The position numbers and the translations under genes are program-made. 34,863 bases of DNA, taken from positions 1-34,863 of IMG/VR virus record IMGVR_UViG_3300033994_000248. One strand, written 5' to 3'. How positions within the stretch are numbered: position 1 is the stretch's first letter; every line of letters begins with the position of its first letter. Below are positions 5,161 to 24,278 of the stretch, piece after piece. Source of the DNA: a virus. Below the pieces are notes generated by a model, which was given only the letters and a program-made list of their open reading frames with translations, did not search any database and was not told the origin of the DNA.

Positions 5161-7153
5161 TTTATTTATATTAAAATTTGCGGAGGCGAGGCAGCCGGAG
5201 TACCGAGAGAAAAAGGGTACTTATGGCGGTTACATGGAGTTCGGTTATCATAATGACTATCCAAAATACCTGCTTGACCTTTACAATAAATCAGCGAAGC
5301 ACAACGCAATCGTAAAAGGTAAAGTTAACTATATAATTGGCAACGGCTGGAAATCAACCGAGCCTGATGCAGTTGCAGAATCATTCATAAAAAAGCCTAA
5401 TCAGTACGAAAGTTTAGCAGACTTGACAAGAAAGGTAAGCACAGATATTGAGGTATTCGGTGGTGCGTATTTGGAAATTGTATGGAGCGCAGCAGGTGGG
5501 CAGCTTTATTCTGTTGGTCATATTGATTATACTAAAATAAGAACGAATAAAGATAACACGCAGTTTTGGTTCAAAAACGATTGGCAAGATAGAAAAGAAG
5601 AACCTGTTGTTATCAATGCTTTTAATAGTCAATTAAGGCAGGGCAGACAAATCCTTTACATGAAGGAGTACAGACCCGGACTTGAAACTTATAGCCTGCC
5701 GGGTTACATGGGTGCGCTTAATTATATCGAATCTGATATAGAAGTAAGTAAGCACGTTTTAGGTAATGCTCAAACAGGGTTTAGCGCATCAAAGATGGTA
5801 ACGCTTCCAAATGGCGAACCTTCCCCGGATGAAAAACGTAATATCGAAAGAAGATTTACTGATAGGTTTACTGGTGCAGATGGTAAAAAGCTGATTCTTT
5901 CTTTTGTTGATAGGGTAGACCAAAAGCCAATCGTTGACGATTTAGGGCAGAGCGATTTATCAAAAGAAGATTTTGCAAATGTTGATACGCTGATTCAGAC
6001 AAACATATTTGCAGGTCATCAGATTGTCAGCCCAATGTTATTTGGTATCAAGACTGAAGGGCAGCTGGGTGGTACAACGGAATTGCAGGCGGCTTATGAG
6101 ATTTTTAAAAATACATACGCAAACGATAAGCAGCACTTTATTGAATCGGTTTTTAATGAGTTAGCTACCATAAAAGGTGCGACTTCTGAAATAGTTATTA
6201 TACCTGTTGAGCCTATTAGCTTCCAATTAACGGAAGCAGCACTTTTGCAGATTGCACCAAAGGAATACCTTCTTGAAAAAGCTGGAATTGATTTGAGTAA
6301 ATATTCACCTGTTGACAGCAATACAGGCGAATTAGCGGCATCACCTGCAAACGTGAACGAATCCTTAAAGAACTTAACAGGGCGGCAGTATCAACAGCTT
6401 ATGCGTGTTGTAAGGCAATTCAGCCAAGGTAAGATAACAAAGCAACAGGCAAGCGTTATGCTTTCAGGTGGTTTAGGTTTAAGTGAGGCTGAAATTAATA
6501 CCATGTTAGGCGTGGATGATGACCCTGAAACAGAAGACCAATTTAGCGAGCAGGAAAATGAAGCGGTTAAGATATTTGAAGAATACGGAGAGCAACGGGA
6601 GTTTTTTAACATCTTTCGAGACAAGCCAGTATACAGCAGCTTTGAGGCTTTCGTAATTGATAACACCATAGACGGGGCAAGTGACAAAAAGATATTGGAA
6701 CTGATAAAGAAAGACCCGTTAATACCTGCTGTGGTACTTGCAAAGGCTATTGGGAAAGAAGTTGAGTTTGTTTACGATAGGTTACAGCACCTTCAAGATA
6801 TTGGGGCGATTGTTAAGGATGAAGTAACGCAGGCAAGAACGCTGACAAGACCCATTAACGAAATTATTGACGAGCCTTTGCGGACTACTATTGAGGTTCG
6901 TTATTCTTACGAATGGAAAAAGGTAGTACCACAGGGGCAGCGCAATTCAGCTACGCATCCATCACGCCCATTTTGCGCAAGGCTGATGCAGTTGGACAGG
7001 TTATATACAAGGAGAGAAATTGAGGCGATAAGTTCAAGATTAGGCTATTCTGTTTTTGACAGAGGCGGTGGATGGTGGACAAGACCAAGCGGTTATCATA
7101 GCCCATCATGTAGGCACGAATGGAGAGCCAATGTTGTAGTAAAGAAAAAATAA
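5153..7153 (+). CDS. Portal protein with C-terminal minor-head-like extension
   Basis: 666 residues. Residues 1-400 or so match a phage portal: an N-terminal part with HNAIVKGKVNYIIGNGW, a middle with DIEVFGGAYLEIVW, and a section with FANVDTLIQTNIFAGHQI and GQLGGTTELQAAYEIF. The portal is the dodecameric ring through which terminase pumps DNA. The rest is unusual. Residues about 450-570 look like an acidic linker plus a winged-helix-like segment. The last 68 or so residues contain HPSRPFCARLM, FDRGGGWWT and SCRHEWRANVVVKKK, which resemble the C-terminus of Mu gpF-like minor head proteins. The gene thus appears to fuse portal and minor-head functions; no separate minor-head gene was seen. Confidence 0.8.
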   Translation: MDNLFILKFAEARQPEYREKKGTYGGYMEFGYHNDYPKYLLDLYNKSAKHNAIVKGKVNYIIGNGWKSTEPDAVAESFIKKPNQYESLADLTRKVSTDIEVFGGAYLEIVWSAAGGQLYSVGHIDYTKIRTNKDNTQFWFKNDWQDRKEEPVVINAFNSQLRQGRQILYMKEYRPGLETYSLPGYMGALNYIESDIEVSKHVLGNAQTGFSASKMVTLPNGEPSPDEKRNIERRFTDRFTGADGKKLILSFVDRVDQKPIVDDLGQSDLSKEDFANVDTLIQTNIFAGHQIVSPMLFGIKTEGQLGGTTELQAAYEIFKNTYANDKQHFIESVFNELATIKGATSEIVIIPVEPISFQLTEAALLQIAPKEYLLEKAGIDLSKYSPVDSNTGELAASPANVNESLKNLTGRQYQQLMRVVRQFSQGKITKQQASVMLSGGLGLSEAEINTMLGVDDDPETEDQFSEQENEAVKIFEEYGEQREFFNIFRDKPVYSSFEAFVIDNTIDGASDKKILELIKKDPLIPAVVLAKAIGKEVEFVYDRLQHLQDIGAIVKDEVTQARTLTRPINEIIDEPLRTTIEVRYSYEWKKVVPQGQRNSATHPSRPFCARLMQLDRLYTRREIEAISSRLGYSVFDRGGGWWTRPSGYHSPSCRHEWRANVVVKKK

Positions 7154-16302: not shown

Positions 16303-16335
16303 ATCCCGGTGGTGTTTACCTTCGGGATTTTTTTT
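16303..16335 (+). terminator. Intrinsic terminator ending the late transcript
   Basis: An outer ATCCCG/CGGGAT stem (16303-16308 with 16323-16328) and an inner GGT/ACC stem with a GTTT loop, separated by a small internal loop, are followed by TTTTTTT. It separates the lysis cassette from the early promoter at 16356. Confidence 0.8.
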
Positions 16336-16355: not shown

Positions 16356-16396
16356 TTTGTTGGTTTGATTTATTTGTGTATCTTTGATATATCAAA
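16356..16396 (+). promoter_or_regulatory. Early promoter 1 with palindromic operator
   Basis: TTTG at 16356-16359, a 19-base spacer and TATCTTTG at 16379-16386 match the Bacteroidota housekeeping consensus exactly. The perfect 14-bp palindrome TTTGATATATCAAA (16383-16396) starts inside the -7 box and covers the expected start site, so a bound dimer would block transcription. A half-site (TATATCAAA) lies upstream at 16344-16352. The same promoter-operator arrangement occurs at 21437. The first gene begins 20 bases after the -7 box. Confidence 0.85.
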
Positions 16397-16405
16397 CACA
16401 GAAAC

Positions 16406-16711
16406 ATGAACACACAAAATTTTAGATTAAAAAGTAAAAAAGACATTATCCCAGCTATTAAAGAAGGTCAATCTTGGACACAATGGTTTGAAGAAAATAA
16501 TGGTAATAGGGAGTGCGTATATGGTTGTATTGGTTATAGCGGTACTAAAGTACATAGGTTTGTAGCTTCATACATTAACATAAATGGCGAAAATATTGTA
16601 GTTTCTTTATCAAGCCATTGCGGTTCTCAATCTTATGGAAGTGGTTTGGGAGTAAGTTTTAACTACTCAGAAGAACAAGTTACTTGCCAAAAATGCAAAC
16701 CTAAAAAATAA
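16406..16711 (+). CDS. First early-operon protein, unknown function
   Basis: 101 residues. It is the first gene behind the strong early promoter, a place where phages often keep host-takeover or anti-defence proteins. Visible features are CVYGC (about 38-42) and a final CQKC, which could together bind zinc, and a basic end (KPKK). I recognise no family. The leader is AAACACAGAAAC directly before ATG, the same A/C pattern seen before many genes in this region. Its product is likely made early and abundantly; the role is unknown. Confidence 0.5.
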   Translation: MNTQNFRLKSKKDIIPAIKEGQSWTQWFEENNGNRECVYGCIGYSGTKVHRFVASYININGENIVVSLSSHCGSQSYGSGLGVSFNYSEEQVTCQKCKPKK

Positions 16712-17018: not shown

Positions 17019-17186
17019 ATGAAGGAAACATTAATTAAGTTACGGAAAGAAAAAGGGCTTACACAGGCGCAAGTTAGCTTTATTAGCGGCTTATCCCTGC
17101 CAACTGTGAACAGGGCAGAGAATCGGAATGTAAAGCTGAAAACATACGAAATCCTGTTCACGGCTATAAATAAATATAAAGGTTGA
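17019..17186 (+). CDS. Small Xre/Cro-type HTH regulator (55 residues)
   Basis: A 55-residue protein consisting of little more than a helix-turn-helix: LRKEKGLTQAQVSFISGLSL, then PTVNRAENRN, as in the Xre/Cro/CI family (HTH_3). It is short for the family (usually 65 or more) and lacks a dimerisation region, so it may bind as a weak dimer. It is encoded in the operon behind the palindromic promoter at 16356, making it a candidate for binding TTTGATATATCAAA and setting an autoregulatory loop. The terminator at 17205 follows directly. Confidence 0.65.
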   Translation: MKETLIKLRKEKGLTQAQVSFISGLSLPTVNRAENRNVKLKTYEILFTAINKYKG

Positions 17187-17860: not shown

Positions 17861-18149
17861 TGACCGGGTAATGATGGAACTGGTAGTAAGGGGTGAAGTG
17901 GTTATGGAGGGCAGCTGTAAAATGATAATACGCAACATTAAAGACCTGCATAAAAAATGGTATTATGCTTATGGGCTGGCTTCCAAACATGACTGGGAAA
18001 TATATATAAGGATGCCAAGCAAAATGGATGAAGATAAAAAAACTATCTTTTTTCCGAAGAAAAATGTTATATTTGAAATTCAAAACACAAAACAAAATGA
18101 AAGTACAAACACAACAGACGGACAACTTAGTGAGCCAGCTGATTATTAA
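17850..18149 (+). CDS. Early protein of unknown function
   Basis: Up to 99 residues. The start is uncertain: ATG at 17850 overlaps the previous gene by 11 bases, while the ATG pair at 17871 gives a 92-residue protein. The sequence is basic and aromatic (KDLHKKWYYAYGLASKHDW) with no recognisable domain. Its 3' end overlaps the next gene (start 18097) by 53 bases and contains a promoter/operator-like element at 18068. Such a deep overlap suggests the last residues are under dual constraint. Confidence 0.45.
   Translation: MRNDDRVMMELVVRGEVVMEGSCKMIIRNIKDLHKKWYYAYGLASKHDWEIYIRMPSKMDEDKKTIFFPKKNVIFEIQNTKQNESTNTTDGQLSEPADY
18068..18084 (+). promoter_or_regulatory. Candidate third promoter/operator of the TTTGA-TCAAA type
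   Basis: TATATTTG (18068-18075) matches TAnnTTTG and overlaps the inverted repeat TTTGAA-A-TTCAAA (18072-18084). It closely resembles the elements at 16379 and 21460 and is likewise followed by an ACAC-rich leader, with ATG at 18097. No good -33 element is present at 19-21 bases, and the site lies within an upstream coding region. Confidence 0.45.
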
Positions 18150-18789
18150 CGGGGACTTGGGCAGACTTTCCCCTGCCGAAAAAGTAACGTATTACAATGG
18201 TTACTGCCAAAGATTAGGTCTTGACCCGTTCAGAAAGCCTTTTGACCTGCTACGCTTAAATGGTAGGGAGATTCTTTATTGTACCCGGTCAGGGGCGCAG
18301 CAACTTAACAAGCTGCACAATGTTAGCCATGCAATAACAAGCAGGGAAACTAATGCAGATGCAGGCGTTTACCTTGTAACCAGCAGGGCTTGCTTGCCTG
18401 ATGGAAGATGTACGGAAAGTATCGGGGCTGTAAATATTCAAGGGCTGAAGGGTGAGGCTTATGCAAATGCAATCATGAAAGCTGAAACGAAAGCAAAACG
18501 CAGGGCAACACTTGACCTGTTAGGTTTAGGAGTTTTAGATGAATCAGAGATGGATACGCTGCCAGTAGTAGGCGGCTTTGAGGTACAGGCTGAAGTTATG
18601 AGCGAAGCTGATTTATCTTCCCGTACAACTTACAAAACTGAAGGCGAGGTAGTAGGTGCTTTGGATTTGGTTGAAACAATGGCACACCTTAAAAGTCTTT
18701 ATAAGATGAATAGTGTAATAGTTGATGCTAATCCTGAAATAAAGGAAATGTTTTCTGCACTCAAAAAAGAGTTAACCAATGGAAAATAA
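18097..18789 (+). CDS. Putative single-strand annealing protein (phage recombinase)
   Basis: 230 residues from the ATG at 18097, which has the typical leader CAAAACACAAAACAAA; the frame is open to 18028 but that start would lie deep in another gene. The pattern YCQRLGLDPFRKPFDLLRLN, LYCTRSGAQQLNKLH and ETKAKRRATLDLLGLGVLDE recurs in phage proteins I associate with RecT-like annealing proteins, which anneal complementary strands during phage recombination and replication. The last third is less conserved and acidic. The neighbour at 18779 overlaps by 11 bases and looks like its usual companion. Family call moderate; another replication-linked role is possible. Confidence 0.55.
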   Translation: MKVQTQQTDNLVSQLIINGDLGRLSPAEKVTYYNGYCQRLGLDPFRKPFDLLRLNGREILYCTRSGAQQLNKLHNVSHAITSRETNADAGVYLVTSRACLPDGRCTESIGAVNIQGLKGEAYANAIMKAETKAKRRATLDLLGLGVLDESEMDTLPVVGGFEVQAEVMSEADLSSRTTYKTEGEVVGALDLVETMAHLKSLYKMNSVIVDANPEIKEMFSALKKELTNGK

Positions 18790-19956: not shown

Positions 19957-20772
19957 ATGAAAAAGGATGCTTTTTATTTTCCACACTTTTCTAACGCCAG
20001 CAAGGACAACAAAATAAGAAGGCTGGAAAAGGAATTAGGGCTTGAAGGTTATGCTATTTATTTCAAGTTGTTAGAGGTATTGCGTGAATCTACCGGGTAC
20101 AAATATCCAATGGATGACATTGATTTGTTAGCTGATGACTTTGGGACAAGCGAGCCAAAAGTAAGGGTAGTAATATGCAATTACGGCTTATTTAATGTGG
20201 ATGAGGAAAACAATTTCTTTAGCATTAAGCAGATTTATTACCTGCAACCTTACATTGAAAAGACACAAAGGGCAAGGGTTGCAGCACAAAAAAGGTGGGA
20301 CAGGGTTGAAGGTGATGCAAATGCAATGCAAATGCATAGCAAATGCAATGCTGATGCAATGCAAATAAAGGAAAGTAAAGGAAAGGAAAGTAAAGTAAAA
20401 GAAAGTAAAATAAAGGAAACAAAAGAAGAAAGTCCTTTGGTTTTTATTTCTAATGATTGGCAAGTACTTTGGGAAGGATGGGTTGAGCATAAGCGCAACC
20501 AATTTAGGGATAAGTACAAAACAAAACAATCCGAGCAGATAGCCATTAACCAGCTTGTAGAATTAGCAGGGGGCGAATTAGAAACGGCACAGGAAATTGT
20601 AAAGGCTTCAGTAAGCAACCTTTGGAAAGGATTATTCAAATTAAAAACAAATACCAATGCTACAACTAAATCAGGCAATAAGCCAAGCAATTACGACCTC
20701 TACGAACAAAGAAGACAAGAACTCCACAAATGGGCTGCAGAAATTGACAAGCAGCGAGGATTTGGACAATGA
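19957..20772 (+). CDS. DUF4373-type replication initiator-like protein
   Basis: 271 residues. Residues 1-95 match the DUF4373 (Lin1244/Lin1753-like) N-terminal domain, with MKKDAFYFPHFSNASKDNKI, LGLEGYAIYFKLLEVLRE and a winged-helix-like segment. The family occurs in phage replication modules and is thought to be a replisome organiser. A linker rich in Lys/Glu/Ser repeats (KESKGKESKVKESK, about 138-156) follows, encoded by an iteron-like DNA tract. The C-terminus is helical and basic. The gene is preceded by a terminator-like RNA structure and overlaps the next open frame by up to 116 bases. Initiator function is inferred from family and context; no ATPase motif is present. Confidence 0.65.
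   Translation: MKKDAFYFPHFSNASKDNKIRRLEKELGLEGYAIYFKLLEVLRESTGYKYPMDDIDLLADDFGTSEPKVRVVICNYGLFNVDEENNFFSIKQIYYLQPYIEKTQRARVAAQKRWDRVEGDANAMQMHSKCNADAMQIKESKGKESKVKESKIKETKEESPLVFISNDWQVLWEGWVEHKRNQFRDKYKTKQSEQIAINQLVELAGGELETAQEIVKASVSNLWKGLFKLKTNTNATTKSGNKPSNYDLYEQRRQELHKWAAEIDKQRGFGQ
20315..20432. repeat. Iteron-like repeats and purine-rich tract, candidate replication origin
   Basis: ATGCAA occurs at 20315, 20321, 20326, 20343, 20354 and 20359, with variants ATGCAT at 20332 and ATGCTG at 20348. A nearly pure A/G strand of AAAGG/AAAGT repeats follows (about 20367-20432). Short direct repeats beside a strand-asymmetric tract inside an initiator gene are the pattern of lambda-type origins. 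The tract also encodes a KESK-type linker common in this protein family, so the repeats may simply be protein-driven. Confidence 0.4.
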
Positions 20773-21436: not shown

Positions 21437-21477
21437 TTTGGTAAATAAAATAATACCCTTATCTTTGATATATCAAA
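21437..21477 (+). promoter_or_regulatory. Early promoter 2 with palindromic operator
   Basis: TTTG (21437-21440), exactly 19 bases, then TATCTTTG (21460-21467). The palindrome TTTGATATATCAAA at 21464-21477 is identical to that at 16383-16396 and has the same position relative to the -7 box. The spacers differ completely, so the conserved bases are the functional ones. The downstream gene starts at 21493. Confidence 0.85.
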
Positions 21478-21492
21478 CTAAAACACAACACA

Positions 21493-21750
21493 ATGGCTAA
21501 CATCAAAAAATTAAACATTTACGATTGGTACGGTAAAAAATTCACATCAAGAGCGGAATTATTTGAAGCTGGTATCAATAATGTATTAAAAATGGAAAAG
21601 GATATTAAAGATTTTGGAACTTATTATTCCTTTTACAATCTTGGTAAGTTGGTAGCAAAATTTTATCAAGACCATACATTTGGGTTTTGTACACAACCTT
21701 ATGGGGTTGAATTAAATAATACCTATGGTATTGAATCAAATAATATTTAA
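21493..21750 (+). CDS. First protein of the second early operon, unknown function
   Basis: 85 residues with leader AAAACACAACACA before ATG. The sequence is aromatic and lysine-rich (LNIYDWYGKKFTSRAELFE; TYYSFYNLGKLVAKFY) with an Asn-rich end that repeats (Y)G(V/I)E.NN. No family recognised. As the first gene of its operon it is presumably strongly expressed early in infection. Confidence 0.5.
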   Translation: MANIKKLNIYDWYGKKFTSRAELFEAGINNVLKMEKDIKDFGTYYSFYNLGKLVAKFYQDHTFGFCTQPYGVELNNTYGIESNNI

Positions 21751-21988: not shown

Positions 21989-22204
21989 ATGAGCGCACAA
22001 GAAAAAGCAGAGCAGATTTATTCCTATATGAATTTTAATTTTGTCGCAGCAGAATCGGCTATCTGCCTGCTTCATCAGGAATCAGAATACAAAATCTTTT
22101 GGGAACAAGTTTGGGAGGCATTGCTTGATACACATGGGGAAAGGTGGCAGCAGATAGAGTTTGAACATCAAAGGGAAGATTACATTAAAGCCTGTCAACT
22201 ATGA
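21989..22204 (+). CDS. Small protein of unknown function
   Basis: 71 residues, acidic, helical, with several Trp and Gln (FWEQVWEALLDTHGERWQQIE). The leader CTAAACACA lies directly before ATG. The stop overlaps the zinc-ribbon gene start by 4 bases (ATGA). No family recognised. Confidence 0.45.
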   Translation: MSAQEKAEQIYSYMNFNFVAAESAICLLHQESEYKIFWEQVWEALLDTHGERWQQIEFEHQREDYIKACQL

Positions 22205-22677
22205 AAACCTGCAAAACCTGTAAGCAACAGAAAGAATTAACCGAGTACAATAAAAACCAGCTGCAAAAAGACGGGCATGATTACATTTGCAAAGATTGCA
22301 GAAACGAGAAAAAAAGAAGTTACAACTTAGTAGGTGGTAAAAAGGTATGTAGTAAATGCCGGAAGACTAAAGAACTAACCGAATACTGCAAAAAAGCATA
22401 TAGCAAAACTGGATACAATAGCCAATGTAAAGAATGCGCTAAATTATATCAGAAATCCAAACGTCCTGAAAAGCCTGTGGTAATACACCCTGAAGGAGAA
22501 AAAGAATGCACGGGCTGTAAGAAGTCTTTACCTTACCCGGCTTTTAATCGCAATAAAGCCAGCAAAGATATGTATATGAGCAAATGTAAAAAATGTGAAA
22601 GCGACATGGCAAAGGCGAGGAAAGCAAAAGAAGATATCAATTACGCAGAGTTTTATTACCCTGTTGCACTTGATTAG
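22201..22677 (+). CDS. Triple zinc-ribbon protein
   Basis: 158 residues built almost wholly from three tandem units, each with CxxC, about 23-25 residues and a second CxxC: CKTC/CKDC, CSKC/CKEC and CTGC/CKKC. The first two share KELTEY after the first pair. Each unit can bind one zinc ion, and the surface is very basic, so nucleic-acid binding is likely. Similar ribbons occur alone in phage endonuclease VII-like and transcription-related proteins, but the catalytic residues of those enzymes are not seen. It could be a transcription factor for middle or late genes. Two palindromes follow its stop codon. Confidence 0.6.
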   Translation: MKTCKTCKQQKELTEYNKNQLQKDGHDYICKDCRNEKKRSYNLVGGKKVCSKCRKTKELTEYCKKAYSKTGYNSQCKECAKLYQKSKRPEKPVVIHPEGEKECTGCKKSLPYPAFNRNKASKDMYMSKCKKCESDMAKARKAKEDINYAEFYYPVALD

Positions 22678-23472: not shown

Positions 23473-23793
23473 ATGGCAGACCTTACAGCTTCACAGATAA
23501 CAAAACACGCTTTGGAAGTACTGAACGCATGGGGTTACTATGTTTGGCGTAACAATAATTTATCTGTTCCCGGTCGCAAGTTTATTGGGGAAAAAGGCGT
23601 GAGCGACATAATAGGATACCATAAGCAAACGGGCAAGGCTGTGTATTGTGAAGTTAAAACAATTAACGACAAGTTCAGCGAATCGCAAATGCTATTTATG
23701 AGTAAGGCGAAGCAGGCAGGGTGCATTTGTTTAGTGGCACATCAAGTTAACAAGCAAATAAAGCTGGACTATTGGACAGACGAGATGAAATAA
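23473..23793 (+). CDS. VRR-NUC domain nuclease
   Basis: 106 residues forming a single VRR-NUC (PD-(D/E)XK-like) domain: the core GVSDIIGY (Asp45), then YCEVKT (Glu60, Lys62) and SESQMLFMSKA (Gln72). Stand-alone VRR-NUC proteins in phages are thought to cut branched or structured DNA during recombination or replication. The position beside an SNc-like protein and the annealing protein module fits. Its end overlaps the sigma-like gene by 22 bases, suggesting coupling. The catalytic set appears intact. Confidence 0.75.
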   Translation: MADLTASQITKHALEVLNAWGYYVWRNNNLSVPGRKFIGEKGVSDIIGYHKQTGKAVYCEVKTINDKFSESQMLFMSKAKQAGCICLVAHQVNKQIKLDYWTDEMK

Positions 23794-24278
23794 TCACAAG
23801 GCTTTACAATGATGCAGACATATCTGATGCAATAGGGAAAATGCGACCATTAGAGTTACAGGATGACCTGCGGAGTGAAATGTTTATGGTTCTTTGCCAA
23901 ATGGATGCAGCCCGGCTTATAGACCTACACGAAAGAAAGATATTAAAGTTTTATTTGGTTGGTACCATGTTAAACATGATAAAATCAGACCGAAGCACCT
24001 TTTTTAAAGTTTACAGGCGATATTTAGATGAACTACCTGAAGGCTTTACGGAAATGCAGGATAAGCAAGAAAGTAATGAAGAAGCGTTTGCACGGGTTGA
24101 ACAGGCAATGGATGGACTGCATTGGTACGAAAAAAGTGTTATGGAACAATTTGCTGAACTGAAAAATATCAGCGAATTAAGCAGGCGTACCAAAATACCA
24201 TACAGGAGTTTAAGCAAGACAATTAGCGATGCCCGAAAGAAAATAAAGACAGAGATTAAAAGCAATATAAAAGAATAA
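23772..24278 (+). CDS. Sigma-70-like transcription factor
   Basis: 168 residues starting at a TTG (23772), since no ATG lies near in frame and the start overlaps the upstream gene. Residues about 30-82 resemble sigma region 2 (DDLRSEMFMVLCQMD, FYLVGTMLNMIKSDRSTFFK) and about 116-160 resemble region 4 with an HTH (YEKSVMEQFAELKNISELSR, IPYRSLSKTISDARKKIK). Phage sigma-like proteins of this sort direct host RNA polymerase to middle or late promoters. It is placed late in the second early operon, upstream of modification and packaging genes. The candidate promoter type at 2513 and 4742 could be its target. Confidence 0.65.
   Translation: MDRRDEIITRLYNDADISDAIGKMRPLELQDDLRSEMFMVLCQMDAARLIDLHERKILKFYLVGTMLNMIKSDRSTFFKVYRRYLDELPEGFTEMQDKQESNEEAFARVEQAMDGLHWYEKSVMEQFAELKNISELSRRTKIPYRSLSKTISDARKKIKTEIKSNIKE

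Follow-up and report, generated by a model that had tools for sequence, protein, structure and literature searches.

Two places in the window (the whole 34,863-nucleotide stretch of phage DNA analyzed, IMG/VR record IMGVR_UViG_3300033994_000248) carry the same promoter-like unit overlapped by the same palindrome, which raises the question of whether they are jointly repressed and which protein would read them. The sequence-only reading proposed a Bacteroidota sigma site combined with a dimeric operator, coordinating two early operons, with a 55-residue Xre/Cro-like protein from the first operon as the candidate regulator. The coordinates confirm two identical units, each composed of TTTG, exactly 19 bases, TATCTTTG, and the perfect 14-base palindrome TTTGATATATCAAA (Table 1). 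Both the exact palindrome and the exact 18-mer occur in the window at these two sites only, and base composition alone predicts 5e-6 copies of the 18-mer in 34.9 kb. Start-site mapping in flavobacteria places TAnnTTTG at −12 to −5 (PMC9723704). Predicted starts placed on this basis, 5 bases after TTTG, fall at 16391 and 21472, so that the palindrome covers −8 to +6 and lies over the −7 box and start site, as had been claimed.

Table 1. Positions of the predicted promoters, operators and associated features in the window
Feature	Coordinates	Strand	Comment
Terminator-like hairpin, CCCGGTGGTGTTTACCTTCGGG then T-run	16305..16334	+	Between endolysin gene and promoter 1; read directly
Promoter 1: −33 TTTG 16356-16359, spacer 16360-16378 (19 bases), −7 TATCTTTG 16379-16386	16356..16386	+	Bacteroidota consensus (PMC9723704)
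Operator 1 (predicted): palindrome TTTGATATATCAAA	16383..16396	.	−8 to +6 of predicted start 16391
First gene of promoter 1, 101-aa orphan	16406..16711	+	Unrelated 67-aa gene instead in L072; absent in L272
55-aa Xre/Cro-type HTH	17019..17186	+	Pfam HTH_3, E 2.3e-6; family early operon; not tied to palindrome
Rad52-like annealing protein	18028..18789	+	Phage family marker gene; promoter 1 gene run
Replication initiation protein	19957..20772	+	PHROG 2562; promoter 1 gene run
Promoter 2: −33 TTTG 21437-21440, spacer 21441-21459 (19 bases), −7 TATCTTTG 21460-21467	21437..21467	+	
Operator 2 (predicted): palindrome TTTGATATATCAAA	21464..21477	.	−8 to +6 of predicted start 21472
First gene of promoter 2, 85-aa orphan	21493..21750	+	Slot filled by unrelated genes in L072, L003

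Both units show what is expected of a Bacteroidota main-sigma promoter: TTTG, a gap of about 19 bases, TAnnTTTG, and a gene start close 3'. The −33 and −7 elements and the 19-base spacing are exactly those of such promoters, but ordinary Bacteroidota promoters have no palindrome over −7/+1. The two spacers differ, in line with the description of them as unrelated, but the 40 bases above the spacers (T-run, A-run, AAAATAnTTTG) are weakly alike, with z values of 2.5 in the window, 4.8 in L072, and 3.8 in L272. This weak likeness raises the possibility that promoter 2 arose long ago by copying of promoter 1.

The main genes of the window are all on the plus strand. Upstream of site 1 are the endolysin gene and a terminator-like hairpin; downstream of it are the HTH, Rad52-like, and replication-initiation genes. 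The hairpin is kept in L072 and was not among the matches of a pattern scan. Elsewhere in the window, a 168-aa protein without a Pfam match (23772-24278), encoded between nuclease and terminase genes in the position of the sigma-70 region 2 protein of Nonlabens phage P12024S, looks like a phage sigma-type factor. Another region (22201-22677) has three repeated Cys4-type motifs that match endonuclease VII and Lar-like restriction-alleviation PHROGs.

Comparison with close family members showed that the palindrome is retained while its neighbors turn over. In L072, the HTH (98%) and its surroundings are kept, spacers and first genes differ at both promoters, and the palindrome arms are intact at both, with centers TC and TT. 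In L272, promoter 1 has a third spacer, no first gene, and intact arms, and promoter 2 is degenerate. In L003, an unchanged promoter 2 is followed by a different first gene; promoter 1 lies outside the sequence compared. Constant arms with a varying center and varying bases on either side are the pattern of a dimer site. Two early operons of this kind are therefore present in the window, L072, and probably L003, but not throughout the family, since promoter 2 is degenerate in L272, absent from the other family members tested, and confined to the window subclade. That the two units are repressed we infer from sequence. The first-gene slots (16406-16711 and 21493-21750 in the window, and their counterparts in L072, L272, and L003) are hypervariable, holding unrelated small orphans in near-identical surroundings. 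These genes are candidates for host-takeover or anti-defense functions; for 88 first genes, PADLOC gave no match, and Pfam and PHROG gave none that was informative.

The same element recurs in many other phage contigs. More than 100 different ones contain the module TAnnTTTGAT-nn-ATCAAA, with one or two copies in nearly every record, usually with a −33 TTTG at 17 to 21 bases and a small orphan gene 5 to 35 bases 3'. The exact 18-mer is present in 69 viral stretches, mostly in the same promoter frame and many of them on contigs with genes in common with the window, and TTTG-N18-20-TAnnTTTGATnnATCAAA (freed form TTTGN18-20TAnnTTTGATnnATCAAA) is present in at least 119. At distinct phage sites, TTTG lies 17 to 21 bases upstream in 141 of 171, and 108 also have an ATG open reading frame close downstream; the 108 first genes behind palindrome promoters fall into 92 clusters. 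Centers at sites with an open reading frame 3' were AT (32), TT (30), TC (11), GT (6), CT (5), and others, counts in which AT is favored by the way the first set was chosen. Scans of whole records, which had been picked for holding the site, gave one or two sites each, and the reversed-pattern control gave no match.

Promoters found without requiring the palindrome gave a different picture: of 112 strong matches in phages, only 2 carried it, so the palindrome is not a general promoter trait. In 31 palindrome phages, the genes up to 1.7 kb 3' of the promoter include those for annealing proteins of the ERF (6) and Rad52 (4) types and for HTH_3 proteins (8), which marks it as typically an early-operon promoter. 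Matches from genome scans of Clostridia, Borrelia, and similar genomes were set aside as not promoter-like; those in Clostridia have one conserved flanking sequence in common and look like coding-sequence coincidence. The only cultured relatives found were Nonlabens phage P12024S/L (portal 25% identity); an exact TTTGATnnATCAAA is missing there, and the single one-mismatch copy, at 7053, falls within an annotated coding gene. One contig (G067, 12707-12728) has a palindrome, TTTGATTAATCAAA, with TAnn on both strands that could act at a pair of divergent promoters simultaneously. Under selection and heading two plus-strand gene runs in the window, the site supports the proposed sigma site with a dimer-type site over −7/+1; the element is a real, selected promoter-operator module of Bacteroidota phages, its operator role being putative.

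The regulator named by the sequence-only reading fared less well. On that account, the 55-aa Xre/Cro-like protein, a product of promoter 1, would bind both palindromes and shut both early promoters by Cro- or Aca-like autoregulation. A HTH gene of Xre/Cro type does lie within the regulated run, all seven palindrome phages carrying the HTH cluster have the gene 0.3 to 1.3 kb 3' of the palindrome promoter, and the window subclade retains both the HTH and the promoter 1 arms. As in acr-aca operons and lambda Cro/CI, a promoter with an inverted repeat is followed by one or more small variable first genes and a small HTH gene. Unlike in those systems, the phage HTH does not track the inverted repeat, and the first genes examined match no known anti-defense or defense model, although orphans among them may still have such functions. 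Only 7 of 32 palindrome phages carry the HTH cluster. Among 80 loci drawn by the Rad52-like protein with the palindrome disregarded, the small HTH was present in nearly all that had enough upstream DNA, and the operator was not conserved along with it. The homologous promoter reads TATCTTTGatatatcaaa in L290 and TAnATTTGctaaacaatcac in L292, L334, and L337, whose HTH proteins are letter identical; further identical-HTH pairs with and without the palindrome are L342 versus L322 and L307 (one mismatch) versus L341. The palindrome-less loci had no TTGATnnATCAA anywhere in the DNA fetched. Some HTH-keeping relatives thus lack the palindrome at matching promoters, the outcome named beforehand as refuting, and neither element is needed where the other is. 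A search for HTH homologs yielded a single close relative; the other matches were generic Xre proteins, distant in sequence, at loci without the palindrome. The diverged HTH of the window subclade possibly reads the palindrome, but as a general account this protein is an unlikely reader. Two of the loci, L281 and L299, are the two ends of one contig (IMGVR_UViG_3300032093_000416) with HTH and Rad52-like genes on both, which suggests end overlap or terminal redundancy.

A cellular reader is suggested by bacterial chromosomes. In Flavobacterium, a gene of the MarR family (Pfam MarR) is preceded by the module, with one TTTGATATATCAAA over −7 and another over −33; one Flavobacterium MarR-type protein, at locus L092, has 145 residues. 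The 12-bp core TTGATnnATCAA lies within 180 bases upstream of 16 of 42 chromosomal MarR-family homologs in sampled Bacteroidota; with 3 occurrences in 135 kb of flanks as background, this is an enrichment of about 90 times. Five genomes with the palindrome were checked: four (G092, G095, G096, and G164) had TTTGATATATCAAA at the MarR promoter only, and the fifth (G163) had it there and in two other places. Autoregulated MarR-family promoters thus share with the phage module the core and, in Flavobacterium, its register over −7, but they front the regulator gene and often have a second copy over −33, whereas the phage module is present as a single copy and has no MarR gene with it. No MarR homolog was found in palindrome phages, and together with the core at MarR promoters this points to a cellular MarR-type reader. 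To judge from these sequences, the reader is probably a bacterial repressor and not the phage's own small DNA-binding protein.

Several observations count against a MarR-type protein in particular. The close MarR subfamily is far from general, being present in no more than about 10% of the Bacteroidia genomes sampled. In about 20 Chitinophagaceae metagenome-assembled genomes, the palindrome lies at a promoter of non-coding-RNA-like character; the genomes searched had only remote MarR homologs, which were rejected as carriers of the site because sampled flanks lacked the core. Furthermore, a palindrome overlapping TTTG must begin with TTTG and end with CAAA, so the shared core could partly reflect convergence. 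We therefore hold only tentatively, at somewhat less than even chances, that the early phage promoter is gated by a cellular repressor, most likely of MarR type, with binding, repression, and the identity of the reader all read from sequence patterns. We regard as doubtful the broader proposition that convergence has given many Bacteroidota phages, otherwise unrelated, a single cellular MarR-type operator that gates the promoter of their most variable early gene.

The palindrome-bearing cellular loci have features of their own. L096, L116, L134, and about 17 other Chitinophagaceae loci share a strongly conserved stretch of about 200 to 250 nt with no obvious open reading frame, beginning about 65 bases after TAGTTTTGATATATCAAA and ending with a T-arm-like GGAGGTTCGAGCCCTCC, paired CTGTRGGG/CCCTACAG, and a terminator. 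ARAGORN found no tRNA or tmRNA in it, and there was no credible Rfam match; it is possibly an undescribed noncoding RNA. At L090 (Psychroserpens) and L105 (Muricauda), the palindrome is in a gene promoter beside another inverted repeat (TTACACTAAA...TTTAGTGTAA), and the gene is presumably an IS1595-like transposase from its look.

Other readers would account for part of this evidence. The Chitinophagaceae promoter requires a reader outside the MarR subfamily, which would suit another cellular factor, such as a metal-dependent repressor of the DtxR/TroR/MntR type. A literature search for the palindrome had as its sole match a paper on the TroR operator: TroR of Treponema denticola binds an operator containing TTTTGATATATCAAAA, and TTTTGATGCATCAAAG is part of the operator in T. 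pallidum, so that a regulator of another family uses identical arms, TTTGAT-nn-ATCAAA, around a free center (PMC2628430). Treponema TroR operators, of the DtxR family, also share the promoter-region overlap with the phage module, but they belong to another phylum, to a metal-transport operon, and to an experimentally known reader. Treponema is not a Bacteroidota, and at the loci examined the site was not seen linked to a metal-regulator or metal-transport gene, leaving such a factor quite improbable. An FNR-type site requires TTGAT-N4-ATCAA and was rejected, as the arms here are separated by N2.

That the phage encodes some other reader, apart from the 55-aa HTH, is very unlikely. The one or two sites in most records are what a phage-specific switch predicts, and the two centers match in five two-site records (window, G057, G073, G079, and G089), although they differ in L072, L224, and G007. 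Against this, the palindrome phages have no protein cluster that all of them share, the best reaching 20 of 32; in a gene-content test near the promoter, only first-gene linkage separated palindrome from non-palindrome members; and phage repressor sites normally diverge among phages, which the palindrome does not. Given the least weight here is the view that no repressor is involved and that the palindrome is a promoter part, an initially transcribed sequence, or a shared homology block for first-gene exchange. First-gene turnover behind the palindrome and its presence at unrelated host promoters (transposase-like and non-coding-RNA-like) fit this view, but its rarity among strong phage promoters and the dimer-site pattern of kept arms speak against it.

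Under gating by a cellular MarR-type repressor, the tentatively preferred reading, the host main sigma factor would drive each early phage promoter, and the operator (arms TTTGAT/ATCAAA with a free 2-bp center) would cover both the −7 box and start site, where a dimer, once bound, would close the promoter by occlusion. The module would drive a fast-changing first gene and then the recombination and replication genes behind it. The most likely reader would be a cellular winged-helix repressor of MarR type whose own promoter contains the same site.

Even if no reader is named, the motif and its persistence through turnover can be tested directly. If the proposal is true, one short, searchable module marks an early promoter and a variable first gene in many uncultured Bacteroidota phages, which would help in the search for host-takeover or anti-defense genes. 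It would also mean that early phage transcription listens to a host regulator, and if convergence on a MarR operator is true, phage takeover would be coupled to a host sensor of stress or of a ligand.
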